Below are positions 29,286-58,630 of a DNA stretch of 64,000 bases, piece by piece (within the stretch, counting starts at the first letter, position 1; each line of letters begins with the position of its first letter). The notes under the pieces were generated by a model. That model saw only the letters and a program-made list of their open reading frames with translations. It was not told where the DNA came from and made no database searches. The position numbers and the translations under genes are program-made. Source of the DNA: Moorella humiferrea (GTDB taxonomy: Bacteria; Bacillota; DSM-521; Neomoorellales; Neomoorellaceae); NCBI RefSeq assembly GCF_039233145.1, contig NZ_CP136419.1, positions 408,001-472,000 on the forward strand, read 5' to 3'.

Positions 29286-29379
29286 TACTGCCTTACCACT
29301 GTTATACAGTAGTAATTTTCTACTAAAAAAATTGGTACTCAATCGTCTTGGCCATCCTGGAGCTTAAAGGCATGATGAA

Positions 29380-30270
29380 ATGGAACACACCAAGAAAAAC
29401 CGGCAGCATCCCGAAATTTTGATTGCCACCCTGGGTGTGGAGCCTCAGGTAGTGACTATTACCCTTGACCGCTTGCTAGCCGACGGTCGGTCTATCAGCG
29501 AGGTCGCCGTAATCTATACAGAGAACCCGGCGGTACGCCAGGCCCTGGAGATAGTTGCCGGCGAGTTTGCGGGTCCCTGCTACCAAGGTATCAGTTTTCG
29601 CCCGGTTCCAGTAGCCTTAGGGCGAGGGAAAATACAAGATTTTTGCAACGATGCCGACCTGCGCGCCCTGCTGCGCACCCTGTATGGTGAGGTGCGCCGC
29701 GCCAGGCAACAGGATTTTATTGTCCACCTGTGCGTTTCCGGCGGGCGCAAGGTCATGGCTATTATGGCCATGGTCGTGGCCCAGCTCCTGTTTGGGCCTG
29801 AGGACTGTGTCTGGCACCTGGTTACCGAGGGGTGGCAGCCCGGCGACCGGCGCCGCTTGCACCTACCTGCGGAGGAAAAAGTCTGGCTGGTACCGGTGCC
29901 GGTTTTGCGCTGGCGAGAAGCAGGTACGCTGATGCGCATGGTGGCCAGGCTGGATGACCCTGCGGAAGTAGTAGCCTGGTACGAAAAGTTAAGCCGTGAT
30001 GACCAGGAAAGGCGCAAGAGCGAGTTCATCCGGCACTGGTTGACGCCGGCCGAACGGGAAGTAGTTAAACTCGCCTGTTATGGTCTGGACAATAAGGCTA
30101 TAGCAGCCAGGCTTTATAAAAAAGAACAAACCGTAGCCAACCAGCTGCGCGGAGTTTATGAAAAGTTACGGGAATGGCTGGGCTACCCGCCTGGTATCGT
30201 CGATCGCAGCGTGCTAATCGCTGAATTTGCTTCCTATTTTCACCATCCAGGAAGGGATGACTCAACGTGA
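29380..30270 (+). CDS. CARF-domain (NE0113/Csm6-like ring-nuclease family) protein with LuxR-type HTH
   Basis: A 296-residue fusion. Residues 10-190 form a CARF-like domain of the NE0113 (Csx14-type) family: EILIATLGVEPQVVTITLDRL, then HLCVSGGRKVMAIMAMVVAQL and the VWHLVTEGW block. These domains bind cyclic oligoadenylate and some cleave it. Residues 220-275 are a LuxR-type helix-turn-helix (LTPAEREVVKLACYGLDNKAIAARL, then TVANQL). So it may be a transcription factor tuned by the second messenger made by Cas10. It is the first gene of the CRISPR operon and its stop overlaps csx15. The domain pair differs from the winged-helix Csa3 type. The HTH assignment is by motif only. Confidence 0.75.
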   Translation: MEHTKKNRQHPEILIATLGVEPQVVTITLDRLLADGRSISEVAVIYTENPAVRQALEIVAGEFAGPCYQGISFRPVPVALGRGKIQDFCNDADLRALLRTLYGEVRRARQQDFIVHLCVSGGRKVMAIMAMVVAQLLFGPEDCVWHLVTEGWQPGDRRRLHLPAEEKVWLVPVPVLRWREAGTLMRMVARLDDPAEVVAWYEKLSRDDQERRKSEFIRHWLTPAEREVVKLACYGLDNKAIAARLYKKEQTVANQLRGVYEKLREWLGYPPGIVDRSVLIAEFASYFHHPGRDDST

Positions 30271-30647
30271 AGATTATCAATTTTGCTCACCCCTTGACCC
30301 CGGCCAACCTGGGGGAAATAGCCAGGCTCAGCGGTGGTGGAGTGGAGGAAGTAATCGAGGTAACCTGTCATATCGATCCCCGTTGCACCCTAGAGCCCCA
30401 GATTGAGGCCCTGGTTGATAGCCTCGGGTTTAGCTCCTGGGAGTGGCAAACTGGCTCTTTCCTGTTCAATCTCCCTTCCCTTAATTACTGCGCTGCGGTA
30501 CTGGTGGCCCATCTGCACGGGCGTATAGGGTATTTCCCGGCTATGTTGCGCCTGCGGCCGGTAGATGAAAGCTTTCGTTGGCGCTTTGAAGTGGCGGAGA
30601 TTATCAACCTGCAGGCCGTTCGCGAGCGAGCGCGCAGGCGGCGATAA
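30267..30647 (+). CDS. csx15: CRISPR-associated protein Csx15
   Basis: A 126-residue protein matching the Csx15 pattern: MKIINFAHPLTPANLGEIARL, a Cys-containing middle, then SLNYCAAVLVAHLHGRIGYFP with MLRLRPV and the end VAEIINLQAVRERARRR. Csx15 is one of the small families proposed to be ring nucleases that destroy cyclic oligoadenylate and switch off the type III response. It overlaps the CARF-HTH gene by 4 bases, so sensor and proposed off-switch are made together. Enzyme activity is not proven for this family to my knowledge. Confidence 0.75.
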   Translation: MKIINFAHPLTPANLGEIARLSGGGVEEVIEVTCHIDPRCTLEPQIEALVDSLGFSSWEWQTGSFLFNLPSLNYCAAVLVAHLHGRIGYFPAMLRLRPVDESFRWRFEVAEIINLQAVRERARRRR

Positions 30648-30655: not shown

Positions 30656-31684
30656 ATGATGCAAGACATAATTCTTACTTGCGAGGTTTTAACGCCAATG
30701 TTTCTGGGTGGGGCGGATGCCAGGGAGCCAGAGTTAAGGGCGCCATCAATTAAAGGAGTCCTGCGCTTCTGGTGGCGGGCCCTCCACGGCTTTGACCCCC
30801 TGTTAAAAACAAAAGAAGGCAGTATATTTGGTTCGGCAGGTGAACATGCACAGAAAAGCAGAATCACCCTTAGAATTGAGGGAGAGGATTTAACTCCTTA
30901 CATTACAAAAGAACCCCTTCCCCGCCATACATATCAGGTAAAAGGACATGAATTGAATATCCTGGAGTACCTGGCCTACGGAACCTATATTTATAACCGG
31001 ATGCAGAGAAGGAATGAATTCTACCGCGCCTATATTAAACCTGGTTACAGTTTCAATCTAATCGTAAAGACAGATAATGAAGTTGATCTCCTGGAATTCT
31101 TCCTGGCTTTGCAGTATTTTTGCTGGTTCGGATCACTGGGAGCAAAAGCGCGCAATGGTTTTGGCAGCTTTAAAGTTAAAAATGTTAAAGGGCACCTTCC
31201 GGCCGGAGAGAAGATTGACTTAACCTCTCTTCCCGGGGCAAGTAGCCTGGCAAGTTTCAAGCAGTATACAGGGATTCCTAAATTCAGCGCCTTCTCTCAT
31301 GGAGCCAGGCTTTTTAGAACACGGCAGGATCACAGTACCTGGGATACCTGCCTGGCAGAACTGGGCCATGCCTATCGCCATGCCCGTCTCTCCCTGGAGC
31401 CCCCTCATTCTTATAAACGGCGCCAGTATATCGGTGCCCCGCTGATTGTTAACCAGAAGCAGCAATCCAGGCTGGCCAGGCACGCCAAACCTTATTTTCT
31501 GCGCGTCCATGAGTGGCAGGGAAGATATACAGGTTATATTCTTTACCTACCGTCGCGGTATTGTACAGGCCTGGCAGGAGAAATACCAGGGAACCTTAAT
31601 CTGGAAAAAGAGGATGCGGTCTTTTCCACTGCGTGCCAGGAAATGAATAAGGCATTAGGACGGTACCTGGAGGTGATAGATTGA
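30656..31684 (+). CDS. cmr1: type III-B effector subunit Cmr1
   Basis: A 342-residue RAMP protein beginning MQDIILTCEVLTPMFLGGAD, followed by the family signature APSIKGVLRFWWRALHG. It ends with a second RAMP fold. Cmr1 caps the 3' end of the crRNA-bearing backbone in the Cmr complex. The neighbours cmr2 to cmr6 follow in standard order, interrupted only by the CARF gene after cmr3. GGAGGG lies just upstream of ATG 30656. The last 4 bases overlap cas10. Confidence 0.9.
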   Translation: MMQDIILTCEVLTPMFLGGADAREPELRAPSIKGVLRFWWRALHGFDPLLKTKEGSIFGSAGEHAQKSRITLRIEGEDLTPYITKEPLPRHTYQVKGHELNILEYLAYGTYIYNRMQRRNEFYRAYIKPGYSFNLIVKTDNEVDLLEFFLALQYFCWFGSLGAKARNGFGSFKVKNVKGHLPAGEKIDLTSLPGASSLASFKQYTGIPKFSAFSHGARLFRTRQDHSTWDTCLAELGHAYRHARLSLEPPHSYKRRQYIGAPLIVNQKQQSRLARHAKPYFLRVHEWQGRYTGYILYLPSRYCTGLAGEIPGNLNLEKEDAVFSTACQEMNKALGRYLEVID

Positions 31685-33456
31685 ATTCCTTACTTATTTT
31701 TACTATCGGACCTGTTCAATCTTTTATCGCCCAGGCGCGTAAGACCCAGGACCTGTACGCCGGCAGTTATATCCTGTCCCATCTCTGTGGTACAGCCGCT
31801 CGGACGGCGCAGGATAATTATGAGGCGGAGATAATCTATCCAGATTTACATAATGGATCTTTACCGAACCGTCTTGTGGCTCTTCTTCCCGTAGGAGAAA
31901 AGGAAGAGCTGCAAGAAATAGGTCGTCAGTTAGAGAGTAAGGTAAGGGATGAGTTTGTCCAGATCGGGCGGCAAGTGGTCCGGTCTTTCGGTTTACCGGT
32001 AACTCCTGCCCTGGAAGCACAGCTACAGGATTTCTTGGAAATCTACTGGGTAGGAGGGAATTGCGAACCCTCCCGTTATGCTGAGCGTTACCGGCAAATG
32101 GAAGCTGTCTTAGGAGCGATAAAAAATACCCGCATCTTTTCCTCCGGGGGGGAACGGGGCCGGAAGTGCAGCATTACCGGCGAGCATAACGCCCTTTTCT
32201 ACCGGGGCGGGAAAAAGGCCTACCTGGAGCAGGCGTTCAGGGTGCCTGAAAGCGTGCCCAAGAAATACCTGGCCCCTGGAGAAGCTTTAAGCGGGATCGG
32301 CTTTATGAAACGGGCAGCCGCCAGGTATTTTTGCCATTGTTTGGGTGGAAATTTTGATTCTGACTTTCCTTCGACGGCCAGTATAGCACTAGCGGCAAGT
32401 CTCCACTTATTGCCAGCGGATATAGTTGAAAGCTATAAAAAAATTTTTGCAGGCGAATTTGACGATCAGTTCTTTTACCAGGAGAATTTAACCCCAAGAC
32501 GTTTTGCACTAGAAGGCTTGTCCCTAGAAAAATTACAACAGGCAGATGCGCTTCTCAAGGAACTGTATAGCGAAGCCAAAAAGCGAGGAATAAAGTTTAC
32601 GAAATACTATGCTCTCCTGGTGATGGATGGCGATAATATGGGCGAATGGGTAGCCGGTAAAAATCTGGCTGACCAGGGGCAACTGCCAGACTTCCAGCGC
32701 AACCTTACCCGGTACCTGGGTGCCTATGCCAGGGAGGCCAAAGCAATTTTGCAACTACCTCGAGGTAAGCTCGTTTATTGCGGCGGCGATGATGTCCTGG
32801 GTTTAATTAACTTGAACCATCTTCTGTCGGTCTTAAAAGATTTGCGGGATAAATTCCCGCCTTTGGAGAAAATCGCTAATATGTCTCAGCAGAAAACCTC
32901 CTCGACTTCAGGAGGAGTCTGTATTGCTCACTATAAAGCACCTCTGGCAGAAGTAATAAAATTTGCACGTAAAATGGAAGAAGTGGCCAAGGGGGTTGAC
33001 GGGAAGGACGCCCTCGCTATAGGTGTATTAAAACATTCAGGAGAAATCTGCCAGACTGTTTTCAGGTGGAAGTATGATAATTTGGAACCACTTTCTTTGC
33101 TGCACAGCCTGGTTGTTCTCTTGAGTACCGGCAAGTTTTCCGATACTTTTATCAGGAATCTATCCCGGGAATTCCGCTCCTTAATCCCACCTGCTGATGA
33201 GAGCCTGGCGAAGAAGAGCGGGAATATAGCATTAAAAGCGGCAGAAGAAGAGATGGTGGCAGCCGAAATCAAGCGCCTCTTGCAGCGCTCCTGCCAGCTG
33301 CAAGACCCTACGGAGGCAGATAAAATTGTGAGTGAGCTTCGGGAGAAGTTGTTTACCTTGTATTTAGAATGTGGCCTGGTTAATTTCCTTTCTTTTTTAG
33401 ATATAGCAGCTTTTCTATCCCGGGAGGTGCAGGTAATCAGTGAAGTTAAAGATTGA
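31681..33456 (+). CDS. cmr2: Cas10/Cmr2 without HD domain
   Basis: A 591-residue Cas10, short for the family. It starts directly with the ferredoxin-like Palm-type region (LLIFTIGPVQSFIAQARKTQDLYAGSYILSHL); the N-terminal HD nuclease is absent. The cyclase Palm is intact: MDGDNMGEW (315-322) and the signature YCGGDDVLG (366-374). It should therefore synthesise cyclic oligoadenylates on target-RNA binding but not cut DNA. The zinc-site region has a CSITG instead of the usual CxxC. TTG start at 31681 overlaps cmr1 by 4 bases. The cOA product would feed the CARF proteins of this operon. Confidence 0.9.
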   Translation: MNSLLIFTIGPVQSFIAQARKTQDLYAGSYILSHLCGTAARTAQDNYEAEIIYPDLHNGSLPNRLVALLPVGEKEELQEIGRQLESKVRDEFVQIGRQVVRSFGLPVTPALEAQLQDFLEIYWVGGNCEPSRYAERYRQMEAVLGAIKNTRIFSSGGERGRKCSITGEHNALFYRGGKKAYLEQAFRVPESVPKKYLAPGEALSGIGFMKRAAARYFCHCLGGNFDSDFPSTASIALAASLHLLPADIVESYKKIFAGEFDDQFFYQENLTPRRFALEGLSLEKLQQADALLKELYSEAKKRGIKFTKYYALLVMDGDNMGEWVAGKNLADQGQLPDFQRNLTRYLGAYAREAKAILQLPRGKLVYCGGDDVLGLINLNHLLSVLKDLRDKFPPLEKIANMSQQKTSSTSGGVCIAHYKAPLAEVIKFARKMEEVAKGVDGKDALAIGVLKHSGEICQTVFRWKYDNLEPLSLLHSLVVLLSTGKFSDTFIRNLSREFRSLIPPADESLAKKSGNIALKAAEEEMVAAEIKRLLQRSCQLQDPTEADKIVSELREKLFTLYLECGLVNFLSFLDIAAFLSREVQVISEVKD

Positions 33457-34537
33457 CCCCCTGGATACCCTTTTTTTCCGCGACGGTCGGCCCTTTACCA
33501 TGGGTGATGATAATTGGGCAGTAAGTATTTTTCCTCCTTCTCCCGGCGTGATTTATGGTGCTTTACGCAGTCTTTATTTCTCCTGGCATCCGAAAGAACT
33601 TGCTTTGGCCGAAACTGAGGCCGATCCTACGTCCGGTTTACAAATAACAGCTTTTTATTGGCTTATAGGTTCGGAAGGAGAAGGCAACCCTTATTATCCC
33701 ATGCCCCTGGATTGCGTCAGGCTGAAGCACAACCGGCGTGAACCCCAGCGTTTTTACCTGCTAACCATGAGCTCGCTGGGGAACCTGGTGACTAACTATC
33801 CTTTTACATGGTTGTTAACGAGCCAGGATGAGGAGGTAGAAGGTCCGGTAGGCTATCTCATAGATCACGAAAGCCTTAGGAATTACCTGGAAGGCAAAAG
33901 GGCAACATTTTTCGGCCTGGATATGAATTTCTATTTGAGCCGGGAGCTCAAAGTCGGGATTGGTCGGGATGCCGGCACCAGGGCGGCAGAAGAACACCGT
34001 CTGTACCGGGTAGAGATGTTACGGTTAAAAGATATGAGCCTGGCCGTTGATTATCAGGGTCTGAAATTGCCGGAGGAGGGCTTCCTGCGCCTGGGTGGGG
34101 AAGGCCGGGCAGCCGTTTACACCCATGTGGCAGGAGCAACAGAGGAACTGCCAGCTCCTGCAGGGGGCAGGTATTTCAAGCTTTACCTGGCTACTCCCGC
34201 CTTTTTTAAAGGAGGGTGGCGTCCCGGATGGATAAATCCAGAGGGCGTAGGTAATTATCAGGGTTTAAAACTAAAGCTACTTACGGCGGCTGTGGGCAAA
34301 CCACTTTCTATAGGCGGCTTTGATATAAAACGAAAGCAGCCCAAACCCATGCGCAAGGCCGTACCGGCGGGCAGTGTCTATTATTTTGAAATACTGCAAG
34401 GCACGATGGACGATGCTGTTAAGGTTTTCCACGGCCATTCAATAAGCGAGTATAGGGAAAAGGAGGGTTTTGGGCTCGCTTACATGGGCTATCTCGATCC
34501 CAAAAATCAAAGTATCTTAGAGAAAGGAGAAACCTGA
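33440..34537 (+). CDS. cmr3: type III-B effector subunit Cmr3
   Basis: A 365-residue RAMP protein. The N-terminus LKIDPLDTLFFRDGRPFTMGDDNWA followed by FPPSPGVIYGALRS is diagnostic for Cmr3. The C-terminal glycine-rich segment (KPLSIGGFDIKRKQPKPMRKAVPAG) is also typical. Cmr3 binds the 5' handle of crRNA next to Cas10. The gene overlaps cas10 by 17 bases and is followed one base later by the CARF gene. Confidence 0.9.
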   Translation: MKLKIDPLDTLFFRDGRPFTMGDDNWAVSIFPPSPGVIYGALRSLYFSWHPKELALAETEADPTSGLQITAFYWLIGSEGEGNPYYPMPLDCVRLKHNRREPQRFYLLTMSSLGNLVTNYPFTWLLTSQDEEVEGPVGYLIDHESLRNYLEGKRATFFGLDMNFYLSRELKVGIGRDAGTRAAEEHRLYRVEMLRLKDMSLAVDYQGLKLPEEGFLRLGGEGRAAVYTHVAGATEELPAPAGGRYFKLYLATPAFFKGGWRPGWINPEGVGNYQGLKLKLLTAAVGKPLSIGGFDIKRKQPKPMRKAVPAGSVYYFEILQGTMDDAVKVFHGHSISEYREKEGFGLAYMGYLDPKNQSILEKGET

Positions 34538-34538: not shown

Positions 34539-35738
34539 ATGCTGGTTATTACCACTGTGGGCACCTCCTTGCTGGAAAATTACCGCGAGAATCACTCCGA
34601 TATCGATATGGATTATCTTTATTTAAAGGAAGAACCGGCGTCAAACTGGGATAACAACGAGCGGCGGATAAACAAAATTAAAAGAGCCCTGTTGAACTGG
34701 GCCCAGGCGAAGAAAGAGACCTGCGCTGAGATTAAAAGCCTCTTTAGCATTCGCCATCATAATACTAAAGAAATAGAGGTGCGGCTGCTGGCCACGGATA
34801 CCATCCTTTCCCGCTTGGTAGCCGAAGTCCTTGAACAGGTCCTCAAGGACGAAATGAAAATATTTTTTGAGCCGGAAAAAGATGTTATCAAAGGCCTGCA
34901 GGTATGGGATAGAAAACGTTTTGAAAAGGAAGGATTAATAAACCTTATCGCCAGGATCGAAGAACTAGCATTTACCTGCAAAGAGATAGCTATTAATTTT
35001 ACTGGTGGCTACAAGGCGATTATCCCCTATATTACCATTATGGGACAGCTTAACAATATTCCACTCTACTACATATTCGAAGATACCGATGAGCTTATCA
35101 GGTTGCCCCAGGCACCCCTGGACATCAATTGGGGTATTTTTGAGAAGTACAGCCATATCATTGAAGACCTGGCCGGGGGAATTTATGACTGGAGCCGATA
35201 TAAATTAGAACATCCAGTAGAGGAAGATTTCCAGGCCTGTATCTGGGAAGAAGGCGAATGCGCAGAATTAAATGCCATTGGCCGGATGTTTTGGAACAAG
35301 TATCACAACTATTTCGTGGTAGAAGTCTTGAAGGGGTTCAGCTATAGCAAAGATAGCAGCGGTAACAAGCGGGAAATCAACGAGGCCCTGCAGGAACTCT
35401 ACGGCCGGTTGGAGAGTTTAATCAAAGAGAATAAACTCCGGACCACAGAGGAACTCCAAATATACATAAACTCGCTGTCTGAAAAGAATGATCTCCGCCA
35501 TGGCGAGAACCCCGACAGGGACAAATACATTTTCAAGTCAACCAGAAAGAGCCAGATCAGGCTTGTCTATACCCCCATTATTAAACCTTACGGTCTGAGC
35601 CTGCGCCTTTTTGATTATGTCAGGGGCGATTTTGATCATGGCGAGTATATTAAAGAATTCAAGCAACGGATGAATATGCTCACAGAACCGGATTTTATTG
35701 TTATTACTTTGAGAAAGCCCTTAGGTAACAAATTTTAA
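34539..35738 (+). CDS. CARF protein of the APE2256 family with a possible RelE-like C-terminal effector
   Basis: A 399-residue protein. The N-terminal half is a CARF domain of the APE2256/TIGR02619 type: VITTVGTSLLENY, then AINFTGGYKAIIPYITIMG, then YYIFEDTDELIRLPQAPLD. The C-terminal part (about 330-390) reads KYIFKSTRKSQIRLVYTP and LRLFDYVRGDFDHGEYI, a strand pattern recalling RelE/HigB toxins. CARF-RelE proteins (Cami1) are known type III effectors that cut mRNA at the ribosome. No HEPN motif (R-x4-6-H) was found. Its place inside the cmr block supports an effector role. The CARF part is firm, the RelE part tentative. Confidence 0.7.
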   Translation: MLVITTVGTSLLENYRENHSDIDMDYLYLKEEPASNWDNNERRINKIKRALLNWAQAKKETCAEIKSLFSIRHHNTKEIEVRLLATDTILSRLVAEVLEQVLKDEMKIFFEPEKDVIKGLQVWDRKRFEKEGLINLIARIEELAFTCKEIAINFTGGYKAIIPYITIMGQLNNIPLYYIFEDTDELIRLPQAPLDINWGIFEKYSHIIEDLAGGIYDWSRYKLEHPVEEDFQACIWEEGECAELNAIGRMFWNKYHNYFVVEVLKGFSYSKDSSGNKREINEALQELYGRLESLIKENKLRTTEELQIYINSLSEKNDLRHGENPDRDKYIFKSTRKSQIRLVYTPIIKPYGLSLRLFDYVRGDFDHGEYIKEFKQRMNMLTEPDFIVITLRKPLGNKF

Positions 35739-35760: not shown

Positions 35761-36714
35761 ATGTTTAAAGCTGCGCGTCCTTTTTTCCTCATTGTAGAAA
35801 CGCCTCTCCATGCCGGTTGCGGCAGTGACCTGGGAGTAGTCGACCTGCCCATCCAGCGGGAAAAACATACCGGCATACCTAAGGTAGAAGCTTCCGGCTT
35901 GAAAGGCTGCCTTAGGGAAGCTTTCGAGGGACTCAGCGAAACACCAAATGGTTCGCTGCCGGAACCCCTGGTGCAAGAATTTCCTGCCCTTAAAGAAAAG
36001 AGCAAGCTGAAGGAAGCTATCAACCTTGCCTTTGGACCCGAGGAAGGAGAACTCTATGCAGGCGCCCTGGGTTTTACCGATGCCAGGCTCCTGTTGTTTC
36101 CAGTGCGCTCAATGCGCGGGGTGTTCGGGTGGGTGAGCTGCCCGGCAGTCATTTCCAAGTTTCTTCATGAGTTAAGAATGGCTGGAATAAAAAATAGCTT
36201 ACAGGTACCGCCGGCGTATACGGTACCCCGGGGTTGCGGGCTGATGGTAAACAGTGAACACCTGATCCTGGAAGAATATACCCTGGCAGTAAAAGAAGAC
36301 ACTGCCTGTACCTGCCTGGCAGATTGGCTGGCCGGTAAACTATTTCCAGGATCGGGCTATGACTACTGGTTCGCGAAGATGAAGAAAGACTTGGTAATCC
36401 TGGCGGATGATGATTTCCGTGATTTTGTCAACCTGTCCACAGAGGTAATCACCAGGACAAAGATCGACCCCAAAACAGGTACGGTGCAGGAGGGGGCCTT
36501 ATTTACTGAAGAGTATTTACCCCAGGAAAGCGTCCTTTATTCCCTGGCGCTGGCCTCGCCGGTTTTTAACACCAATAAAGGCGTTTTTGCCAGGGATGAA
36601 GAGAGGGCCGTTCTCACTTTCTGGCAAAAAGGTCTGCCGGAATTCTTGCAACTGGGTGGCAATGCCACCATTGGTAAAGGGATAGTAAGGTTAAAGGTCC
36701 TGGAGGAGGATTAA
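35761..36714 (+). CDS. cmr4: type III-B backbone subunit Cmr4 (Cas7, target-RNA slicer)
   Basis: A 317-residue RAMP protein with the Cmr4 N-terminal pattern: FLIVETPLHAGCGSDLGVVD, then LPIQREKHTGIPKVEASGLKG. The Asp at about residue 28 (VVD) is at the position of the slicer Asp known from characterised Cmr4 proteins. Several copies form the filament that cuts target RNA at 6-nt steps. Its start follows GGGGGTTGAAG. It is 4 bases from cmr5. Confidence 0.88.
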   Translation: MFKAARPFFLIVETPLHAGCGSDLGVVDLPIQREKHTGIPKVEASGLKGCLREAFEGLSETPNGSLPEPLVQEFPALKEKSKLKEAINLAFGPEEGELYAGALGFTDARLLLFPVRSMRGVFGWVSCPAVISKFLHELRMAGIKNSLQVPPAYTVPRGCGLMVNSEHLILEEYTLAVKEDTACTCLADWLAGKLFPGSGYDYWFAKMKKDLVILADDDFRDFVNLSTEVITRTKIDPKTGTVQEGALFTEEYLPQESVLYSLALASPVFNTNKGVFARDEERAVLTFWQKGLPEFLQLGGNATIGKGIVRLKVLEED

Positions 36715-36718
36715 AAAG

Positions 36719-37111
36719 GTGATTGCAGGATTAGAGCAGGGCCGGGCACGTTATGCCTATGACTGCGCCAGGCAGGGGAAAGAACTGCAAGCCAGTAAAG
36801 AATATAAATCCTATGCCAAAAAAATACCTACTCTGATCAAAACTAATGGCCTGGGGGCAACCGTGGCATTTATTGCCGCCAAAAAGAAGGATGATCCCAA
36901 TAAGAAAGAATATGCCTATAAGCTTATTTATGACCAGTTGACCCAATGGCTGGTGGCAAGGGGCCTGGTGGCGCGAGGTAAAGAATTAGTTGATGCAATA
37001 ATTTCCCTTGATTCCTTTTCCTACCGCATGGTTACGGTAGAAGTTCTGGCACTTTTCAAATGGGTTAGCCGCTTTGCTGAAGGCTTGATTGAAGGTGTTG
37101 CCGATGATTGA
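36719..37111 (+). CDS. cmr5: type III-B small subunit Cmr5 (Cas11)
   Basis: A 130-residue helical protein beginning LEQGRARYAYDCARQG and containing YAKKIPTLIKTNGLGATVAFIAAK, both typical of Cmr5. It forms the minor filament opposite Cmr4. GTG start at 36719 with AAAAAGG upstream. The end overlaps the start of cmr6 by 8 bases, counted from ATG 37104. Confidence 0.88.
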   Translation: MIAGLEQGRARYAYDCARQGKELQASKEYKSYAKKIPTLIKTNGLGATVAFIAAKKKDDPNKKEYAYKLIYDQLTQWLVARGLVARGKELVDAIISLDSFSYRMVTVEVLALFKWVSRFAEGLIEGVADD

Positions 37112-38258
37112 AAAGGGCAAACTGGTGATCCAGAAAGCAAAAAGTGGCAGGTATACAGGTACAGTTTGGTTGGGCGCTAAAAAAATGCCCCTGCCGTCCT
37201 TCTATGAATTAACAGATGACAGCTACAATGGGGCTGATTGTGAGGTGGAAAGGGAAAAGGGGCAGATAATAAAGATCCTTGTGGACGGGCGGGAACTGCC
37301 GCGCCGTCCCGCTAAGCAGCAAAGGGATAATTCTACTTGGGGCAGGCCAGAGCAGGACCGGCACAAGCAATATTCTGACTTCCGCCGGCAGAAGGATACC
37401 GATACCAAGGGTAAATCATCAGAAGATAATTTGAGGTTGTTTTTACCAGAAGATACTCTAAAGTTTTTACCTGCCAGAATCGACAATTTTGGCCTTCTCC
37501 TCAATAAAGCAGCCAAATATGACATCGAAGATAAAAGTTTTAAGTTTTTTAAGGTAGATAAGAAGGAGAAGGCCGGCACTTTACTTATAAAAGCTGATTT
37601 TTCCTCAATAGATTTTCCGGCCCTAAATGCGAGGCGGGATAAAGCCCTCAATGGGCTGGGTCTGCTCCTGGAACGGCTTGAACTTACCCCTAAGTGGCGG
37701 TTTGTTGTAGGCCTGGGCCAGGAATCGGTTTATGAAACAGCCTTGACCCTTCATCCTGTCTACGGTTTTCCCTTTATCCCAGGCAGCGCTATAAAGGGCC
37801 TGGTGCGCAACACAATAATCAGCGAAGTTTTTGCGGGAGATGAAAAGGCGGCTGTCGCTGACGAGGGTTTTCGGGCTATTTTTGGGTGGACCAATTACGG
37901 TACGTCGAAAAGTCATAAAGGACTGGTACACTTCTTCGATGCCTACCCGGCTGCGGCACCCAAAATAGTGCCTGACATTATTAATTCCCATTATGCCAAG
38001 TACTACCAGGACACCAGCGGAAGGATTCCACCCGGCGATTATTATAATCCGGTACCGGTTTTTTTCCTGACGGTAGCAGGGACAGAGATGATCTTTTACT
38101 TAGGCATAAACCCGGCAGCCAACCGGGCCATCGCCGGGGGGCAGTTTGCCGGACATGATTTTTTAAGCACCGCTTCCAAATGGCTTCGCTATGCCCTTAG
38201 CGAATATGGTATTGGAGCCAAAACAGCGGTAGGTTATGGTTATTTCGCTTCTTTATAG
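37104..38258 (+). CDS. cmr6: type III-B effector subunit Cmr6 with an N-terminal extension
   Basis: The RAMP domain occupies the last 260 residues, with the family signature HPVYGFPFIPGSAIKGLVRN and a glycine-rich end (SEYGIGAKTAVGYGYF). In front is an extra 65-residue beta-rich module (LVIQKAKSGRYTGTVWLG ... VEREKGQIIKILVDG) that looks like a small OB or cold-shock-like fold, followed by a charged linker. ATG 37104 overlaps the cmr5 stop (ATGATTGA) and has GAAGGTG upstream; the in-frame TTG at 37089 is less likely. Cmr6 sits at the crRNA 3' side of the complex. The extension might bind RNA (inference). Confidence 0.85.
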   Translation: MIEKGKLVIQKAKSGRYTGTVWLGAKKMPLPSFYELTDDSYNGADCEVEREKGQIIKILVDGRELPRRPAKQQRDNSTWGRPEQDRHKQYSDFRRQKDTDTKGKSSEDNLRLFLPEDTLKFLPARIDNFGLLLNKAAKYDIEDKSFKFFKVDKKEKAGTLLIKADFSSIDFPALNARRDKALNGLGLLLERLELTPKWRFVVGLGQESVYETALTLHPVYGFPFIPGSAIKGLVRNTIISEVFAGDEKAAVADEGFRAIFGWTNYGTSKSHKGLVHFFDAYPAAAPKIVPDIINSHYAKYYQDTSGRIPPGDYYNPVPVFFLTVAGTEMIFYLGINPAANRAIAGGQFAGHDFLSTASKWLRYALSEYGIGAKTAVGYGYFASL

Positions 38259-38283
38259 AATCAAATATGGAGGTGATAAGACT

Positions 38284-39738
38284 TTGGGATTTCTCCAAGC
38301 AATATGGGCCCTGGGGGACCTGGGGGGAGGGGAAGGCCTGGAGCCCTACCTAAAATTTCCCCTTGAGAAAGAGGGCCGGGTGATCAGGGTTTACCTGGAC
38401 GTGCCCGACCCGGAAGCTGAGGTCCTGGATGTGCGGGGGGTGGCCCGGATTGACGTGGCCCACTTCCAGCCCGAGCCGGAAATGAAGCTGAAGTATTTGT
38501 ACCGCGACCGGGTGGGGTCGGCTTCCACCTGGGGCTTTACGCCTATCCATAAGCTGGGCAAACCCAAAGCAGGCAGAGATAAAAACCGGGAATATTTACT
38601 GGGCAAGAAGGGCGACTGGCGCCGGGATAAGGACAGCCACTTTTTCAAGATCCGGAACAAGCTGCTCCTGGAATACGAGGCCACGGGTACTCTAACTTCC
38701 GGGTCGGCAGACAGGATCATGGCCGGCCTGGAGCAAAAAATCGAAGCGGTGCTGGATGACCTGGATCCCAAACAGTCCCATATTGTAATCTTTGGCGCGG
38801 CGAAAGGCGGAAATTTTCTCTACCCGGGGGAGATACCGGCCTTTGTGGCCTATTTCCGCCGCAAGCTGGCCGAAGCCCTGCAGGGCAGGGGGTGTAATAA
38901 AGGAGAAAGGTTAGTATGCGCCATTTGCGGGAAAGCGAGCGGCGACTTAACCGGGTTAAAAAAAGTCTTCAAGTTTTCTACCGATGATAAGGTTAACTTC
39001 GCGCCCGGCCTGGAAAAAGAACGAGCGGAGGCTTCTTTTCCTATTTGTCAATCCTGCCTGGAAAAAATGTCAGGCGGCAGGGAACATACGGAAAGGAAGC
39101 TGGCCAACGCCTCTATCCTGCCGGGAATGCGGCTGTGGGCTATACCTGAGGCGGTGGGCGAAGCCAGGACCCCTATTTTTACTGCCCTCCTCAAAAACAT
39201 TGAGGCAAATCTGGAAGACGAACACCTGCAAAGCCCGGGGGAAAAGAGGGAGGAGAGGTTTTTTACCCAACTGGCCCGCCAGGGCGATACCGGCCTGGCC
39301 TTTCATTTCGTCTGCTGGGAACGCAATAACGCCCAGGAACTGGTGCATTTAATGGTGGAAGACGTGCCGCCGGAGCGCCTGGCCTTCCTGGAAGCACGGT
39401 GGAGCGAAACCGTCCGGTGCCTCTTCGGCTGGGATAACGACCTTCGTTCTCTGGATTCAGCCATCAGGTCCCTTTATGTAACCTTGAGCCGCTTTGCTGG
39501 CAAAAGCGAGGCCGACCGGCAGGTCTTCCGCGATTTCGCCCTCAAGGTCATCAGCAGAATGCTGCAGGGCGAGAAGCTGCCTGTGGCCGCATACAAAAAG
39601 ATAATCAACGCCAGGACGGGCAAGCTGATTTTCGAAAGCGATAGCTGGTCCAGCGTGAAAGAGAGTATCCTTTTTGCCCATGCCTGGGCGGAATTCATGA
39701 TCAGGGTAAACGACAGGGGGGAAGATAATGAAGCTTGA
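38284..39738 (+). CDS. cas8b: type I-B large subunit Cas8 (TM1802/Csh1 family)
   Basis: A 484-residue protein of the TM1802 group of Cas8b. It contains a zinc-ribbon with CAICGKAS near residue 210 and CQSCLEKM about 40 residues later. TTG at 38284 follows GGAGGTG by 7 bases; an upstream in-frame ATG at 38236 would lie inside cmr6. Cas8 is the Cascade subunit that recognises the PAM and recruits Cas3. It is shorter than single-chain members because its C-terminal small-subunit-like part is encoded by the next gene. The gap to cmr6 is only 25 bases. Confidence 0.85.
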   Translation: MGFLQAIWALGDLGGGEGLEPYLKFPLEKEGRVIRVYLDVPDPEAEVLDVRGVARIDVAHFQPEPEMKLKYLYRDRVGSASTWGFTPIHKLGKPKAGRDKNREYLLGKKGDWRRDKDSHFFKIRNKLLLEYEATGTLTSGSADRIMAGLEQKIEAVLDDLDPKQSHIVIFGAAKGGNFLYPGEIPAFVAYFRRKLAEALQGRGCNKGERLVCAICGKASGDLTGLKKVFKFSTDDKVNFAPGLEKERAEASFPICQSCLEKMSGGREHTERKLANASILPGMRLWAIPEAVGEARTPIFTALLKNIEANLEDEHLQSPGEKREERFFTQLARQGDTGLAFHFVCWERNNAQELVHLMVEDVPPERLAFLEARWSETVRCLFGWDNDLRSLDSAIRSLYVTLSRFAGKSEADRQVFRDFALKVISRMLQGEKLPVAAYKKIINARTGKLIFESDSWSSVKESILFAHAWAEFMIRVNDRGEDNEA

Positions 39739-40141
39739 CTTTCTGGATGAGTTTAAGGATCCCTACATGCAGACACCCGTGGGTAGGGGTGTTTTCTTGG
39801 CCGGGGTGGTGCTGGGCTATATGGCCCGCTGTCAGGTGGAAGGAGAAAAGGATATCGCCAGTGCTCCCCTTTTCAAGCAGCTGGAGTTTGGCCGCCTGAA
39901 CATGAAGGCGTTGAAAAAACTCCTGGCGCGGGTGCCCCAGCTTTTAGCCGCCTACAGGGAGACTATGAAATACAGCGGCCTGATAGCGGCCCTGGCAGCC
40001 GAAGCTAACGGGCTAATCCTCAAAGGGGAGAACCAGGAACTGGGCGTGGACGGCAATTTCGCCTTCACCACCGGATTTGCCAATGCTTCCAGCTATTTCT
40101 GGAAGATTTTTGGCAAAAAAGACGGGGAAACAACGGAATAA
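39728..40141 (+). CDS. stand-alone type I-B small subunit (Cas11b-like, equals Cas8 C-terminal domain)
   Basis: A 137-residue helical protein: GRGVFLAGVVLGYMARCQVEG, then LFKQLEFGRLNMKALKKLLARV, ending in FAFTTGFANASSYFWKIFG. It resembles the C-terminal helical domain of TM1802-type Cas8b. In many I-B systems this domain is translated separately from an internal start in cas8b. Here it has its own gene, overlapping cas8 by 11 bases. Two or more copies would line the Cascade belly. The family match is by pattern, not search. Confidence 0.6.
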   Translation: MKLDFLDEFKDPYMQTPVGRGVFLAGVVLGYMARCQVEGEKDIASAPLFKQLEFGRLNMKALKKLLARVPQLLAAYRETMKYSGLIAALAAEANGLILKGENQELGVDGNFAFTTGFANASSYFWKIFGKKDGETTE

Positions 40142-40171
40142 AATAAATTTCTCACAGGAGGTAAATGAGTT

Positions 40172-41086
40172 ATGTCTTTTACCAACCGGCGCGAGATACT
40201 TTTCCTCTACACGGTTAAGGACGCCAATCCCAACGGTGATCCCTTGAATGAAAACCACCCCCGCTATGATGAGGATACGGAGCAGGTGCTGGTTTCCGAC
40301 GTGCGCATTAAGCGCACGGTGCGGGATGAGTGGGTCCGGCAAGGCAAAAGGGTTTTTGTAGACGGCGAACCCAAGACTTTGAAGGCCAGGTTCGAGGAGT
40401 TAAAGGGCGAGACGGGCAAAGGAAGCGGGGGAGAAGTCATGCGGGAGTGCCTGGATACCAGGTTGTTCGGCGTGACCTTTGCCCTGGGCAACGAATCCTT
40501 CTCCTGGACCGGCCCGGTGCAGTTTAAATGGGGCCGTTCCCTCCATGCCGCTACCTTTGAGTTCATCCAGGGCACCTCTGCCTTTGCCACCGAGGGCCGG
40601 GGCGGCCGGGAGAAGGAGCAGCGCTCTTTCCGCAATGAGTATAAAGTACCTTTTGCCCTAATCGCCGTTTATGGTATAGCCAACCAGTACGCTGCGCGCA
40701 TTACAGGCGCAGATGATGCCGACTTAGAGGCTCTTGCCGAAGCATTGTGGCAGGGCACTGACAACCTTATCACCAGGAGCAAAAATGAGCATAAAGCGCG
40801 CTTCTACCTGGAGATAAAATACCGCACCGGCTTTGACGGCAAAATAGGCGCCCTGGATGAAAAGCTGCTTCTCTGCCCGGCGGACGGGCAGGAGCTCACC
40901 CGCGACCGGCAAAAGGCCCTGCGGCGCTTGGATGAAGTCCTGGTTGACGTCACACCACTGGTAAATGCCATGGTTGGGAAAAAGGATGATATTGAAACCG
41001 TCCGGATTATTAAAGACCGCGAGCTGAGGCTGAAAGGGGAGGATGGTCTCAAGGCTTTAGGTTTTAGTAACATCGAGCTGAGGTGA
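40172..41086 (+). CDS. cas7: type I-B backbone subunit Cas7 (Csh2)
   Basis: A 304-residue Cas7/Csh2 protein starting with NRREILFLYTVKDANPNGDP and NENHPRYDEDTEQVLVSDVR, the diagnostic N-terminus of the family. It forms the crRNA-binding filament of Cascade. AGGAGG is 9 bases before ATG 40172. It overlaps cas5 by 4 bases. Confidence 0.92.
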   Translation: MSFTNRREILFLYTVKDANPNGDPLNENHPRYDEDTEQVLVSDVRIKRTVRDEWVRQGKRVFVDGEPKTLKARFEELKGETGKGSGGEVMRECLDTRLFGVTFALGNESFSWTGPVQFKWGRSLHAATFEFIQGTSAFATEGRGGREKEQRSFRNEYKVPFALIAVYGIANQYAARITGADDADLEALAEALWQGTDNLITRSKNEHKARFYLEIKYRTGFDGKIGALDEKLLLCPADGQELTRDRQKALRRLDEVLVDVTPLVNAMVGKKDDIETVRIIKDRELRLKGEDGLKALGFSNIELR

Positions 41087-41814
41087 TCGGGGTGGTCCTG
41101 GTATTCGACGTTTCTGCCGATATGGCCATGTTCAGGAAGCCGTACACTACCACTTCGCTTGTTTCCTTCCCTTTTCCACCCCCGACGGCAGTCGCCGGAC
41201 TCATCGGAGCCATTGCCGGCTTTGACCATGGTGCTGCCCGGGGTTCCTGGCGGGCGGATTTTTGGCGTCACCTGTCCGGAACGCAGGTAGCCCTGAGCTT
41301 TAAAAAAGCGCCTTCCTGGATGATGACGGCTGTTAATATGATTAAATTTAAATCGCCCAGCGGCGATATGGGCGAGCACATCCAGGCCAAGCACCAGCTC
41401 TTGAAGAAGCCGTCCTATCGCATTTACCTGCGGGGCGGCGCCGTCTACCCTGAGTTGAAAAGACGCCTGGCAAGTGGAGAGTTTGTTTACACTCCCTACC
41501 TGGGTGTGGCCTGGGCCCTGGCAGATGTCGTTTATGGCGGCGAGTTTGCCGAGACAGAAGTTATCGCTGAAAATACCTGGGTGAATACAGTCGTACCTCT
41601 CTATGAAGGGGTACAGGTGGATGTCCTGCGCAGCGGGGCTGTCCACCGCGAGCTGGTGCCCTATCGCCTGGATGAGGAACGCCGACTGCAGGAGACTGTA
41701 AATGTGGTCTACCTGGATTTTAAAAACAAAGGGCGATTGTGGTTAAAAGAAAAAGGAAAATTGACGGTTTCCCAGGTAGGGGAGGAGAGGGTGGCCTGGT
41801 TTGGAACCTGGTGA
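41083..41814 (+). CDS. cas5: type I-B subunit Cas5 (Cas5h)
   Basis: A 243-residue protein with the Cas5 N-terminus (VLVFDVSADMAMFRKPYTT, then SFPFPPPTAVAGLIGAIAG). It caps the 5' handle of the crRNA in Cascade. GTG start inside the cas7 stop (GTGATGG region). It overlaps the helicase gene by 14 bases. Confidence 0.9.
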   Translation: MIGVVLVFDVSADMAMFRKPYTTTSLVSFPFPPPTAVAGLIGAIAGFDHGAARGSWRADFWRHLSGTQVALSFKKAPSWMMTAVNMIKFKSPSGDMGEHIQAKHQLLKKPSYRIYLRGGAVYPELKRRLASGEFVYTPYLGVAWALADVVYGGEFAETEVIAENTWVNTVVPLYEGVQVDVLRSGAVHRELVPYRLDEERRLQETVNVVYLDFKNKGRLWLKEKGKLTVSQVGEERVAWFGTW

Positions 41815-44077
41815 AATCTACAGCCACGAAGGTAAGAAACTGGAGGATCACCTTTTGCGCACAGCCGCCATTGCGTATAAAATGGCGGAACATGCCGGTA
41901 TTAGCCTTGGCCAGGAAGAAAAGGAGGCTATTCTCCTGCATGACCTGGCCAAGGCCCACCCCCTCTTTCAGCGGCGCCTGGCCGGGGAACACATTAAATT
42001 CGGCCATGCCGAACCCTCGGCCGCACTTGTGTTTGCCAGGACCGGGAGTCTTATTTGTGCCGAAGCCGTGCGGCGGCACCATACAGCCCTGGAAAATTTG
42101 GCTGATATAAAGCGGCTCTGGGGCAACTATAATTACAGCAAATGGAAAGATACGGTTAGAAGGCTGCCCTGGTGGCCGGGAGCTGCCCGGATAGCTGAGG
42201 AACTTGGGGGTGGAATTTCCAGGTGGCTTAACCTGCTGCCAGAAGAAGAGCAGTGGGAGGACCTGATCTTTAGCGGGGTGGAACTTTATCACCCTGACGG
42301 CATAAAGGAGGAAATGGCAGCGGACTGGCTCAAGCTGAGGCTGCTTTACTCCCTGCTGGTGGCAGCCGACCGCCTGGAGGCGGTGGGTGGTGATTTGGCG
42401 AATGTGGCGCTGGCAATAGACAAAGCAAAGTTAGACAAATATATATCCTCCCTGGGAGGCAGGAAGCTGGCCCAGTGGCGCAGCCGGGTGAGGGAGGAAG
42501 TAGTGGCCAACTCCTTAAATATAATTAAAGAGCCGGGGATATATACCCTCACCCTGCCCACCGGAGCCGGCAAAACCCTTACCGGCCTCCAGGCAGCCAT
42601 GGAAGTTGCCGGGAACCTGAAGGCAGCAAGCATTATTTATGTGCTGCCTTTTGTAAGCCTGGTGGAACAGAACGCCGCCGTGGCGCGGGAACTCTTCGCC
42701 GTCGTCATGGAGGACCACCATCTAAGTTATACCAACGAAATGGCCGATGAAGGGGCGGAGGACCAGGACCCTAACAGGCGGTTTCTGGCTTTTTACCGTT
42801 ACTGGCAAGAGCCGGTGATAGTGACCACCCTGGCCAAGCTATGGGAAGTCCTTTTTTCGCCGCGGGCCAACGACACCATGTCCTTTCACCGCCTGAGCCG
42901 GGCCATTGTCATCCTGGATGAACCCCAGTCTATTCCGGCCACCTGCTGGCAGGGTTTTGGTAAGATGTTGACCCTGTTATCAGAGCGGTTGGGGACCACC
43001 TTTATTCTCATGACCGCCACCCAGCCCGGGTTGACAGCGGGACAAGAGCTCGTCCCCAGGCCGGTGGTCTTTCCCACTGTGAGGCACGAATTTCACTGGC
43101 AGAAAAGCCGGATGTCCCTCGAAGAAGCGGCAGATTTTCTGGTAGCCAGGGGGGCCTTGACCAGCGATTGTCTTATCGTATTAAATACCCGCGAAGCCGC
43201 CCTGCGTATGTACTTGGCAATGAAAAACAGGGGGGCGGATCCCTTCTTCCTTTCGGCCTGGTTGACCCCTGTTCACCGGGAGGAAATATTCCGGGTTTTA
43301 AAAGAGAAAGAGGAAAAGGGGGAGCCGCGCTGCCTGATCGCCACACAGGTGATAGAGGCGGGTATTGACCTGGATTTTGCCATGGTCTTCCGGGACCTGG
43401 GACCTATGGACAGCATCGTCCAGGTAGCCGGTCGCTGCAACCGCAATGCCGGGCGGCAACGGGGGCAGGTTTATATTGCGGAACTGGTAGATGAAAACGG
43501 CAGGAGCTATGCTTCTTATATTTACGACTCGACCCTCATAAACCAAACGCGCAATGTTCTAAGGGAACATTTTGATGAAAGGGACTGCGGGGAGATAATC
43601 AAAGATTATTTTAGCGCCGTACAAGCGGCCGTGAAAGAATCAGACCTCTGGCGCAACATCCGTGAGGGTAGATGGGGTGAGTATATCGACCTGTATGCCG
43701 AAAAGCGGCCTGATGAAATAATGCTGGTGGTTGATGGTGCGGCAGAGGGGGAAGGCGCAAGGCTGCAGGATTTATTGACCGGCATTTGCAGCCCGCCCGG
43801 GTCGGAAGATAAAAATAACCTGGAGGCAGTCGAAAAAAGAAGAAGGGCCTTTAGAGAAATTACAAGGCACGCAATATCTGTTCCCCAAAAGTACCTTGAG
43901 GAATGGTACCAGCGGGAAGGGGGCATGATTTACGGCGGGGAGGAACCGTGTATCAGGGAGCTTTTCCCCTACCTGTGGCTGGTGCAGGGGGAAGGAATAG
44001 GACGTATTTACCGGCGGGAAACAGGGTTTGTCCCGGTAAAGATTGCCGCGCTGATAGAGGAGAATGATCATGATTGA
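41801..44077 (+). CDS. cas3: Cas3 HD nuclease-helicase
   Basis: A 758-residue single-chain Cas3. The HD nuclease comes first: His in IYSHEGKKLEDHLLRT, HD in ILLHDLAKAHP (47-48), then RRHHT. The SF2 helicase follows with Walker A LPTGAGKT near residue 250, the DExx box as VILDEPQSIP, motif III TATQP, and motif VI VAGRCNRNAGR. It is recruited by Cascade to degrade target DNA. All metal and ATP-binding residues look intact. TTG start at 41801. Confidence 0.93.
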   Translation: MEPGEIYSHEGKKLEDHLLRTAAIAYKMAEHAGISLGQEEKEAILLHDLAKAHPLFQRRLAGEHIKFGHAEPSAALVFARTGSLICAEAVRRHHTALENLADIKRLWGNYNYSKWKDTVRRLPWWPGAARIAEELGGGISRWLNLLPEEEQWEDLIFSGVELYHPDGIKEEMAADWLKLRLLYSLLVAADRLEAVGGDLANVALAIDKAKLDKYISSLGGRKLAQWRSRVREEVVANSLNIIKEPGIYTLTLPTGAGKTLTGLQAAMEVAGNLKAASIIYVLPFVSLVEQNAAVARELFAVVMEDHHLSYTNEMADEGAEDQDPNRRFLAFYRYWQEPVIVTTLAKLWEVLFSPRANDTMSFHRLSRAIVILDEPQSIPATCWQGFGKMLTLLSERLGTTFILMTATQPGLTAGQELVPRPVVFPTVRHEFHWQKSRMSLEEAADFLVARGALTSDCLIVLNTREAALRMYLAMKNRGADPFFLSAWLTPVHREEIFRVLKEKEEKGEPRCLIATQVIEAGIDLDFAMVFRDLGPMDSIVQVAGRCNRNAGRQRGQVYIAELVDENGRSYASYIYDSTLINQTRNVLREHFDERDCGEIIKDYFSAVQAAVKESDLWRNIREGRWGEYIDLYAEKRPDEIMLVVDGAAEGEGARLQDLLTGICSPPGSEDKNNLEAVEKRRRAFREITRHAISVPQKYLEEWYQREGGMIYGGEEPCIRELFPYLWLVQGEGIGRIYRRETGFVPVKIAALIEENDHD

Positions 44078-44582
44078 GGAAAGTCTCCCGCCGGTGAACG
44101 GTACCCTCATATGGTATTACACCATTTGCCCCCGCCAGGCCTGGTTGATGGCCCGCCAGATGACACCGGATGAAAATGACGATAATGTTGTCCTGGGCCG
44201 TTTCCTGCATGAAAAAGCCTATAGCCGTGACCGGCACGAAGTCCAGGTCGGCCATATCAAGATTGACCTGGTACGAGGCCCGCGGGGAGAAGTGGTAATC
44301 GGCGAAATTAAAAAATCTAGCCATGCTAGGGAAAGCGCCCGCCTGCAGCTGAAATATTATCTCTATATCCTTAAAAAGAACTATGGCCTTGATTTAAACG
44401 GTGTTTTACTATTTCCCCTGGAAAAGGAAAAAGAAGAAGTAACCCTTGATGCTACGGGGATAGAAGAAGTAGAAAGGGCTATAGAAGGCGTGCGCGCGGT
44501 AGTAGGCTTATCCCTACCACCGCCCCCGGTAAAGACAAAGTGGTGCCGGCCCTGCGCCTACGCCGAATACTGCTGGGCTTAA
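44064..44582 (+). CDS. cas4: Cas4 exonuclease of the adaptation module
   Basis: A 172-residue RecB-type nuclease. Catalytic residues lie in HIKIDLVRG and VVIGEIKKSSHARESARLQLKYYLY. The Fe-S cluster cysteines are in YTICPRQAW near the N-terminus and CRPCAYAEYC at the C-terminus. Cas4 trims pre-spacers at the PAM side and orients them with Cas1-Cas2. It overlaps cas3 by 14 bases. Confidence 0.92.
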   Translation: MIMIEESLPPVNGTLIWYYTICPRQAWLMARQMTPDENDDNVVLGRFLHEKAYSRDRHEVQVGHIKIDLVRGPRGEVVIGEIKKSSHARESARLQLKYYLYILKKNYGLDLNGVLLFPLEKEKEEVTLDATGIEEVERAIEGVRAVVGLSLPPPPVKTKWCRPCAYAEYCWA

Positions 44583-44595
44583 TAAGGGTGAAAGC

Positions 44596-45588
44596 ATGAA
44601 GAAATCTATTTATATTCTCAATGACGGCGAGCTTAAAAGAGAAAGCAACACCCTCTGTTTAATTATGGAGGACGGGAAAAAATTCATCCCCGTCGAGGAT
44701 GTAAGCGAGCTGCATATCTTTGGTGAGTTAAACATTAATAAACGCCTGCTGGAATTCCTGACCGAGAAAGAAATAATTCTCCATTTTTACAATCACTATA
44801 ACTATTATGTTGGCAGTTATTACCCGCGGGAGCACTATAATTCTGGTTATATGATTGTCAAGCAGGCCGAGCATTACCTGGCCCCTGAACTGCGAATCAA
44901 AATCGCCCGGGCATTTGTTACCGGCGCTGTAAAGAATATCAGGCAAGTACTCGTATATTACAAGAACCGTGGCAAAAACTTAAGTGAGACTTTAGAATAT
45001 ATCGACCAGCTCGCTCCTGCCGTTGATAAGGTGAATAGCATTGAGGAGCTGATGGCCATTGAGGGGAATATCCGGGAAAGGTACTACGGCGCCTTCGATG
45101 TTATCATCGGTGATCCCGATTTCGTTTTTAATGAAAGGAGCAGGAGGCCGCCCCAGAACCAATTAAACGCCCTCATCAGTTTTGGCAACACATTGCTTTA
45201 TACTACTACTTTGAGCGAAATTTACCGCACCCACCTGGATCCCAGGATAGGGTTCCTGCACACGTCCAATTTTCGACGGTTTTCCTTAAACCTGGATGTT
45301 GCCGAAATATTTAAACCCATCATCGTTGACCGTTTGATATTCAACCTGACAGGGAAACGCATGATCAAAAAGAATCATTTTCAAAAAAAGCTGGGGGGCA
45401 TAATCCTGAACGAAAGCGGGCGGGCGCTTTTTATTAAAGAATATGAAGATAAGATTGCCACCACTATCCAGCACCGGGAACTGGGACGCCATGTTTCTTA
45501 CCGGCGCCTGATCAGAATGGAACTCTACAAGCTGGAAAAGCACCTGATAGGTGAAAAAGAATATGAACCTTTCCTGGCCAGGTGGTAA
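44596..45588 (+). CDS. cas1: Cas1 integrase (type I-B)
   Basis: A 330-residue Cas1b. The N-terminal beta domain begins KKSIYILNDGELKRESNTL. Catalytic residues are in ELMAIEGNIRERYY (Glu), HLDPRIGFLH (His) and FSLNLDVAEIFKPIIVDR (Asp/Glu). It integrates new spacers at the leader end of the array. It overlaps the first in-frame GTG of cas2; ATG 45591 lies 2 bases after its stop. Confidence 0.95.
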   Translation: MKKSIYILNDGELKRESNTLCLIMEDGKKFIPVEDVSELHIFGELNINKRLLEFLTEKEIILHFYNHYNYYVGSYYPREHYNSGYMIVKQAEHYLAPELRIKIARAFVTGAVKNIRQVLVYYKNRGKNLSETLEYIDQLAPAVDKVNSIEELMAIEGNIRERYYGAFDVIIGDPDFVFNERSRRPPQNQLNALISFGNTLLYTTTLSEIYRTHLDPRIGFLHTSNFRRFSLNLDVAEIFKPIIVDRLIFNLTGKRMIKKNHFQKKLGGIILNESGRALFIKEYEDKIATTIQHRELGRHVSYRRLIRMELYKLEKHLIGEKEYEPFLARW

Positions 45589-45590
45589 AG

Positions 45591-45854
45591 ATGTTTGTGA
45601 TTGAAGTTTATGACGTTAACGAGAAAAGAGTTGCCAAAGTTTTAAAGATAAGCAGGAAATACCTTTATTGGGTACAGAACTCCGTCCTGGAGGGTGAGAT
45701 TTCCGAAGCCAATTATAAAAAATTGAAGATGGAATTGAAGCGTATTATTAATACCAGCGAGGACTCGGTCATATTTTATACCTTTCGGACTACAAGGTAC
45801 TCCCAGAGGGAATCCATAGGCATTGTTAAAGGCGGCGAGAGCAATATTTATTAA
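45591..45854 (+). CDS. cas2: Cas2 adaptation protein
   Basis: An 87-residue ferredoxin-fold protein starting MFVIEVYDVNEKRVAKVLK with the conserved Asp in YDV. ATG 45591 was preferred to GTG 45582 since AGGTGG (45580-45585) is well spaced and the family normally starts here. It dimerises and bridges two Cas1 dimers. Confidence 0.92.
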   Translation: MFVIEVYDVNEKRVAKVLKISRKYLYWVQNSVLEGEISEANYKKLKMELKRIINTSEDSVIFYTFRTTRYSQRESIGIVKGGESNIY

Positions 45855-45879
45855 CGTCAGGTGGAAAGGAAGAATTTAA

Positions 45880-58499: not shown

Positions 58500-58630
58500 T
58501 AGCTTCGACAATAGCAGAGAGGATAAATTAGTTAGTTCCCCCTGAAAAAATCCACTTTTGCATCGCTTAAGGGGAAAAGTTATTACTGGACTGTAGTCCG
58601 GGTTAATCTCTAACTGCTTCACCCATCTTG
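58500..58630. other. junction between array end and insertion-sequence debris
   Basis: No gene. The last perfect repeat is followed by about 35 bases, then a C-rich/A-rich stretch (CCCCCTGAAAAAATCCAC near 58539-58556) that may be the end of the IS remnant next to it. No normal array trailer or degenerate repeat is seen. Confidence 0.4.

Follow-up and report, generated by a model that had tools for sequence, protein, structure and literature searches.

A CARF sensor joined to a LuxR/NarL-type HTH at the head of a bacterial III-B/I-B cas operon, with a predicted operator and a proposed cross-type regulon

The first gene of the CRISPR operon in the window (the whole stretch of 64,000 nucleotides of Moorella humiferrea DNA that we analysed) encodes a CARF sensor joined to a LuxR/NarL-type HTH, an architecture confirmed by sequence profiles and by a structural model. 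We read this CARF-HTH protein as a cOA-responsive transcription regulator of cas operons, acting most likely by activation, and give this reading a probability of roughly 0.6. Its domains, its conserved ligand residues, the DNA site in front of its gene and the distribution of that site are evident at the level of sequence (Table 1). In the mechanism that we propose, Cas10 would make the messenger, most likely cA4, which a CARF dimer would bind without cutting. Ligand binding would cause a change that the helix at residues 194-220 relays to paired LuxR/NarL-type HTH domains, and the HTH pair would bind TRGTA-N6-TACYR-N8-RGTA beside the core promoter of its own cas operon. In relatives, the sites of separate cmr1-cas10, cas8b, csx15 and cas4-cas1-cas2 operons would also be bound, and detection of RNA by type III would raise the expression of type I-B immunity along with that of type III. 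Co-transcribed Csx15 would lower cA4 again.

Table 1. Features in and around the CRISPR operon (positions are those of the window)
Feature	Position	Strand	Remarks
Uma2 gene	28528-29106		divergent from the CARF-HTH gene
Predicted operator TAGTAATTTTCTACTAAAAAAATTGGTA	29310..29337	+	TRGTA-N6-TACYR-N8-RGTA; single match in window and genome
Conserved downstream box	29347..29376	+	CTTGGC 29347-29352 (-35-like), CATGAT 29371-29376 (degenerate -10-like)
CARF-LuxR-HTH regulator, 296 aa	29380..30270	+	CARF 11-181, helix 194-220, HTH 221-288
csx15, cA4 sponge / slow ring nuclease family	30267..30647	+	NF040560 E=4e-46; function from PMC13148439
cmr1	30656..31684	+	TIGR01894
cas10 (Cmr2)	31681..33456	+	TIGR02577; GGDD cyclase motif intact, residues 368-371
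cmr3	33440..34537	+	TIGR01888
CARF-RelE effector, Cami1-like	34539..35738	+	PADLOC CARF7 CARF_RelE E=2e-118
cmr4, cmr5, cmr6	35761..38258	+	TIGR02580, TIGR01881, TIGR01898
Type I-B: cas8b (two ORFs), cas7, cas5, cas3, cas4, cas1, cas2, cas6	38236..46623	+	
CRISPR array	46787..64000	+	repeat GTTCGCAGCCTACCTATGAGGAATTGAAAC, spacing 65-68 bp; end approximate

The original prediction of an ORF that combines an NE0113-type CARF with a LuxR-style HTH is borne out at exactly 29380-30270. Among Pfam profiles, PF09623 Cas_NE0113 matches residues 21-205 (E=5.1e-56; 190 bits against a cut-off of 23) and PF00196 GerE/LuxR matches residues 221-263 (E=4.5e-6; 26.6 bits, above the gathering score of 23.5), with LTPAEREVVKLACYGLDNKA at residues 221-240. 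Because a GerE match (E<=0.01) recurs in 32 of 33 homologues, the match in the window protein is not a product of chance; Sigma70_r4_2, a weaker alternative to GerE, matches 14 of the 33. The PADLOC profile CARF3--CARF, whose label names the CARF only, covers the full length of the protein (residues 11-289, E=3e-122). In sequence searches of the PDB, the N-terminus matched the Crn1/Sso2081 ring nuclease (7e-10) and the C-terminus matched NarL (7e-5; 1e-4 with the HTH alone).

An AlphaFold2 model of the full-length protein, built from the 33 homologues (mean pLDDT 85.9, block pLDDT 81-97), places the CARF at residues 11-181, followed by a long helix at 194-220 and by helices at 223-233, 238-244, 249-267 and 276-288. 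The HTH fold sought by structure prediction is modelled at 223-288 as four helices with no strands and no wing; the all-helical C-terminus and the GerE match uphold the contrast with the winged-helix Csa3 that the original prediction had drawn. The fold searches, like the modelling, used the full-length protein and mostly test its CARF part, which superposes on Sso2081 with a Z of 19.3 and an rmsd of 1.9 over 148 residues, whereas the Csa3 structures 6wxq_A and 2wte_A align over residues 11-293 with a Z of 14.1 and an rmsd of 6.7. By these Z values (19 vs 14), the CARF resembles Crn1 more closely than Csa3.

The gene stands at the head of the CRISPR operon, as had been proposed: 17 same-strand ORFs follow it with gaps of -23 to +30 bp, making an 18-ORF III-B + I-B operon, and the upstream Uma2 gene is divergent. 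A source of messenger is present in the genome, namely cas10 with an intact GGDD. Two further features of the locus deserve mention. A CHASE4-PAS-GGDEF protein (25992-28394, - strand) adjoins the CRISPR operon on the opposite strand, and cas8b consists of two overlapping ORFs, with the N and C parts, at 38236-40141; since cas8b is also in two pieces in a second genome (G010:C161:7944-9771), the two ORFs may reflect an ancient, functional division and not an error of sequencing. The CRISPR repeat has 177 copies in the repeat-search listing for the window.

The predicted operator ends 42 bp before the start codon of the CARF-HTH gene and consists of an inverted repeat, TAC-N11-GTA, with an upstream TAGTA half-site. 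The composite pattern TRGTA-N6-TACYR-N8-RGTA has one match in the 2.67-Mb genome, at 29310-29337; with two mismatches allowed, it has three matches in the window, no more than chance. Across 38 upstream regions, TAC-N11-GTA occurs in 22, against a mean of 2.65 and a maximum of 8 in shuffles, and other TAC/GTA spacings from N4 to N19 stay near background. A GTA stands six bases before the TAC in all 22 of these regions except L043. The arms of the NarL 7-2-7 site are spaced N10, compared with the N11 found here. Loci without the exact site include L024, L025, L035, L041, L044 and L045. A TAC-N12-GTA variant, with one extra spacer base, occurs in two lineages (L006:1400-1428, and L030 upstream of 1444).

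About 10 bp downstream of the predicted operator, the window and its relatives carry a conserved box, CYTGGY. Where a -10 comes after it, this box resembles a -35; in the window group it occupies the short leader ahead of the start codon, and the downstream box of Table 1 runs into that codon. In the coordinates of the aligned sites, CTTGGC and CATGAT stand at +37 and +61. Of the 21 sites with a distant start codon, 20 have a TAnnnT hexamer at precisely +61 or +62, though some of these sites come from close relatives, making the effective number smaller; six of the 20 have an extended -10 (TGnTAnnnT) and most have a TTG/TGG box at +38/+39. With this spacing, the site would span about -73 to -46, a region bound by activators, and we infer activation rather than repression. 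The window-type group has its start codon at +70 and a degenerate hexamer (CATGAT), and a transcription start set by that hexamer would clash with translation; judged from sequence, activation at a window-type promoter is ambiguous and repression there is possible. In the window, a scan for consensus sigma-70 promoters found none on the + strand close to the site. The CTTGG box was also considered as part of a sigma-54 promoter, a reading dropped after inspection by eye, as GG-N10-GC is present in only some loci.

These promoters also frame the alternative that the protein is a repressor, which at rest would occupy the site and keep the cas operon low until the messenger releases it (or the reverse). 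The 42 bp left between site and start codon in the window and its near relatives would suit such a role, as would the half-site TACTAA/TACTAT, which is itself -10-like, so that the site could overlap the promoter. In 20 of the 21 distant-start loci, however, a -10-like hexamer follows the site at a constant distance, which is the arrangement of an activator, and we consider repression unlikely, though far from negligible.

Whether the CARF would sense its ligand or destroy it can be judged from Sso2081, in which D75, R105 and K106 contact cA4, R105A abolishes binding and the GTS of motif I is tied to cutting (PMC10018336). By profile alignment, the three contact residues are D87, R123 and K124 of the CARF-HTH protein, invariant in the 33 homologues, and the GTS is replaced by GVE at 19-21, of which G19 and E21 are invariant in the same 33. 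Retained contacts with an altered motif I are the pattern expected of a non-cutting sensor, which the protein would be rather than a ring nuclease; Csa3a is without ring nuclease activity (PMC8699464). As Csx15 proteins bind cA4 specifically (PMC13148439) and Cami1 is activated by cA4 (PMC11229360), cA4 is likely the messenger sensed in this operon and, we infer, the ligand of the CARF-HTH protein. A Csx14/Crn1-type ring nuclease whose main job is the destruction of cA4, with the HTH serving only for dimerisation or location, would account for the Crn1 fold match and for the NCBIfam Csx14 match above its cut-off (99.4 vs 90.35 bits; the NCBIfam Crn1 match is weak), and Csx14 has been grouped with Crn1 among the predicted ring nucleases (PMC12409355). 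We regard it as improbable given the GVE motif across the family, the neighbouring csx15, already a cA4 sink, and the strong association of the gene with a palindromic DNA site.

That association was tallied in 398 genomes of the phylum: the composite site is found in 21 of the 24 with the gene and in 72 of the 374 without it (Fisher p=9e-12), an association that partly reflects the shared ancestry of the loci, which makes its p-values too optimistic. One of the three gene-bearing genomes that have no exact site carries the N12 variant. Within gene-bearing genomes, 23 of 27 matches lie at most about 20 kb from the gene where 0.09 would be expected, a count made by hand from coordinates and including one probable chance match within cas3. 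In G004, G007, G008, G009 and G019, the composite site is single per genome and stands in front of the CARF-HTH gene. No cas-linked site occurs in the class genomes with cas8b and without the CARF-HTH gene (G001, G003, G005, G016, G017). We set aside as chance the matches at L053, L055, L061, L079, L088, L101, L129 and L133, whose surroundings are unrelated or coding. Three genomes of another genus (G139, twice, at L129:968 and 2731; G278; G408) share an identical site-like sequence, TAGTACTTTCGTACTAAAAAAATTAGTA, with no recognised cas genes nearby and no CARF-HTH gene; it might serve an unrelated LuxR-type regulator as its operator.

In relatives whose genomes hold the CARF-HTH gene, further sites are found before several kinds of cas operon: before a separate cmr1-cas10-cmr3 operon (L134); before cas8b (L102, L091, L105, L095 and L132, with L036 assigned by similarity of the next genes); before csx15 (L031, L032, L097); and before cas4-cas1-cas2 (L033). 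At L135, the ORF next to the site is weakly TM1802-like, with cas7 and cas5 behind it. Just upstream of this site, which precedes an I-B-like operon, lies a Csm6 HEPN-domain ORF (L135:30-710) with no CARF match in the ORF. The original prediction had placed feedback on the protein's own cas operon; the conserved palindromic element directly before the gene is what autoregulation expects, but, with the same element preceding separate type III and type I-B operons in relatives, the loop is probably wider than that.

Genomes in which the gene has decayed bear on its role. It is cut after about 128 residues in G009 (L010) and only its first codons are left in G011 (L060); both genomes keep the predicted operator before an I-B operon beginning with cas6, and neither has a Cas10 match above cut-off. 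Decay of the gene where Cas10 is missing fits a messenger-dependent role, in two genomes only. At L042, a further decayed, frameshifted gene accompanies an intact predicted operator before type I-B genes. That the site serves another cas-operon regulator, with the CARF-HTH protein merely travelling with the same loci, could draw on an association known by co-occurrence only, on the retention of the site in G009 and G011 despite the truncated or remnant gene, and on G010 (58% complete), which has a cas8b-linked site and no CARF-HTH gene detected, but it is very improbable, as the composite site is at background in gene-less genomes, including those with cas1 and cas8b, profile searches recognised no other HTH gene in the window's operon, and the TAC...GTA arms resemble the site of NarL, the closest solved HTH.

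Makarova et al. 2014 (PMC4012209) predicted that NE0113 proteins regulate transcription. The likeness to NE0113 / CARF3 (PF09623; PADLOC CARF3--CARF) is the match over residues 11-289, to which we add the identification of the C-terminus as LuxR/NarL-type and a proposed DNA site and regulon. The 2025 classification (PMC12669027), in the parts considered here, places transcriptional regulators among cOA effectors and mentions no LuxR-type regulator. Transcription control by NE0113 proteins was thus a known prediction, whereas the LuxR-type HTH on a CARF, the predicted operator and the cross-type regulon are apparently new, as no description was found in the literature searched, whose scope lay outside the Makarova et al. 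2020 CARF classification.

The archaeal CARF-wHTH proteins Csa3a and Csa3b share with the CARF-HTH protein a CARF sensor, a C-terminal DNA-binding domain, an expected lack of ring nuclease activity, a palindrome at a CRISPR-associated promoter and a proposed type III to type I cross-talk (PMC8699464). Csa3 has a winged HTH and an archaeal I-A context, whereas the HTH here is LuxR-type, the context bacterial III-B/I-B and the palindrome different; by analogy, the protein would act as Csa3 does without being one itself. Crn1 (Sso2081, Sis0455) and Csx14 offer the closest CARF fold with the cA4-contact residues kept, from which the CARF-HTH protein differs by the loss of catalytic motif I and the gain of an HTH. 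With NarL/GerE/LuxR regulators it shares a GerE domain above cut-off, NarL being the closest solved relative, but its sensor is a CARF and not a receiver or autoinducer domain. CalpL/CalpT/CalpS also give a cA4-driven transcription response in bacteria (PMC11229360), through three proteins and the protease release of a sigma factor, in contrast to the single one-component regulator proposed here.

Control of cas transcription by type III messengers is little explored in bacteria: Csa3, the CARF regulator whose structure has been solved, comes from archaea, and among studied proteins the closest analogue is Csa3a, which showed only non-specific binding to its predicted palindrome, unaffected by cA4 (PMC8699464). 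We tentatively advance, as a proposition standing just short of even odds, a one-component bacterial cA4 receptor that activates type III and I-B cas operons, also in trans, via a dedicated three-half-site operator, such that DNA-targeting CRISPR is armed when Cas10 senses RNA, a bacterial counterpart, with a sharply defined operator, of the cross-talk proposed for Csa3. If true, this would link RNA sensing to raised DNA-targeting immunity and yield a compact promoter system that responds to cA4. The question lends itself to direct testing, since the element has 28 bp, the protein is compact and soluble, and there are clear promoter pairs, among them trans sites in front of I-B operons.

Homologues of the CARF-HTH protein occur in 9 of 22 class genomes and, in the contig collection, on 35 contigs from Moorella, Desulfofundulus, Desulfovirgula, Pelotomaculum, Caldanaerobacter, Pseudothermotoga, Acetothermia and others. 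The gene is mostly followed by csx15 and then by a III-B or I-B module. The Cas10 palm2 profile scores above cut-off in 28 of the 35 genomes with homologue contigs, many of which are incomplete, and one of the 28 (G024) scores only at the level of a GGDEF cross-match. At two loci (L031:5393-6940 and L032:4740-6287), a 7TM-PAS-GGDEF protein is encoded between csx15 and the CARF-HTH gene, behind the predicted operator; that of L031 is a predicted diguanylate cyclase and the L032 copy is assigned by similarity, a placement that raises a possible link of type III signalling to c-di-GMP.
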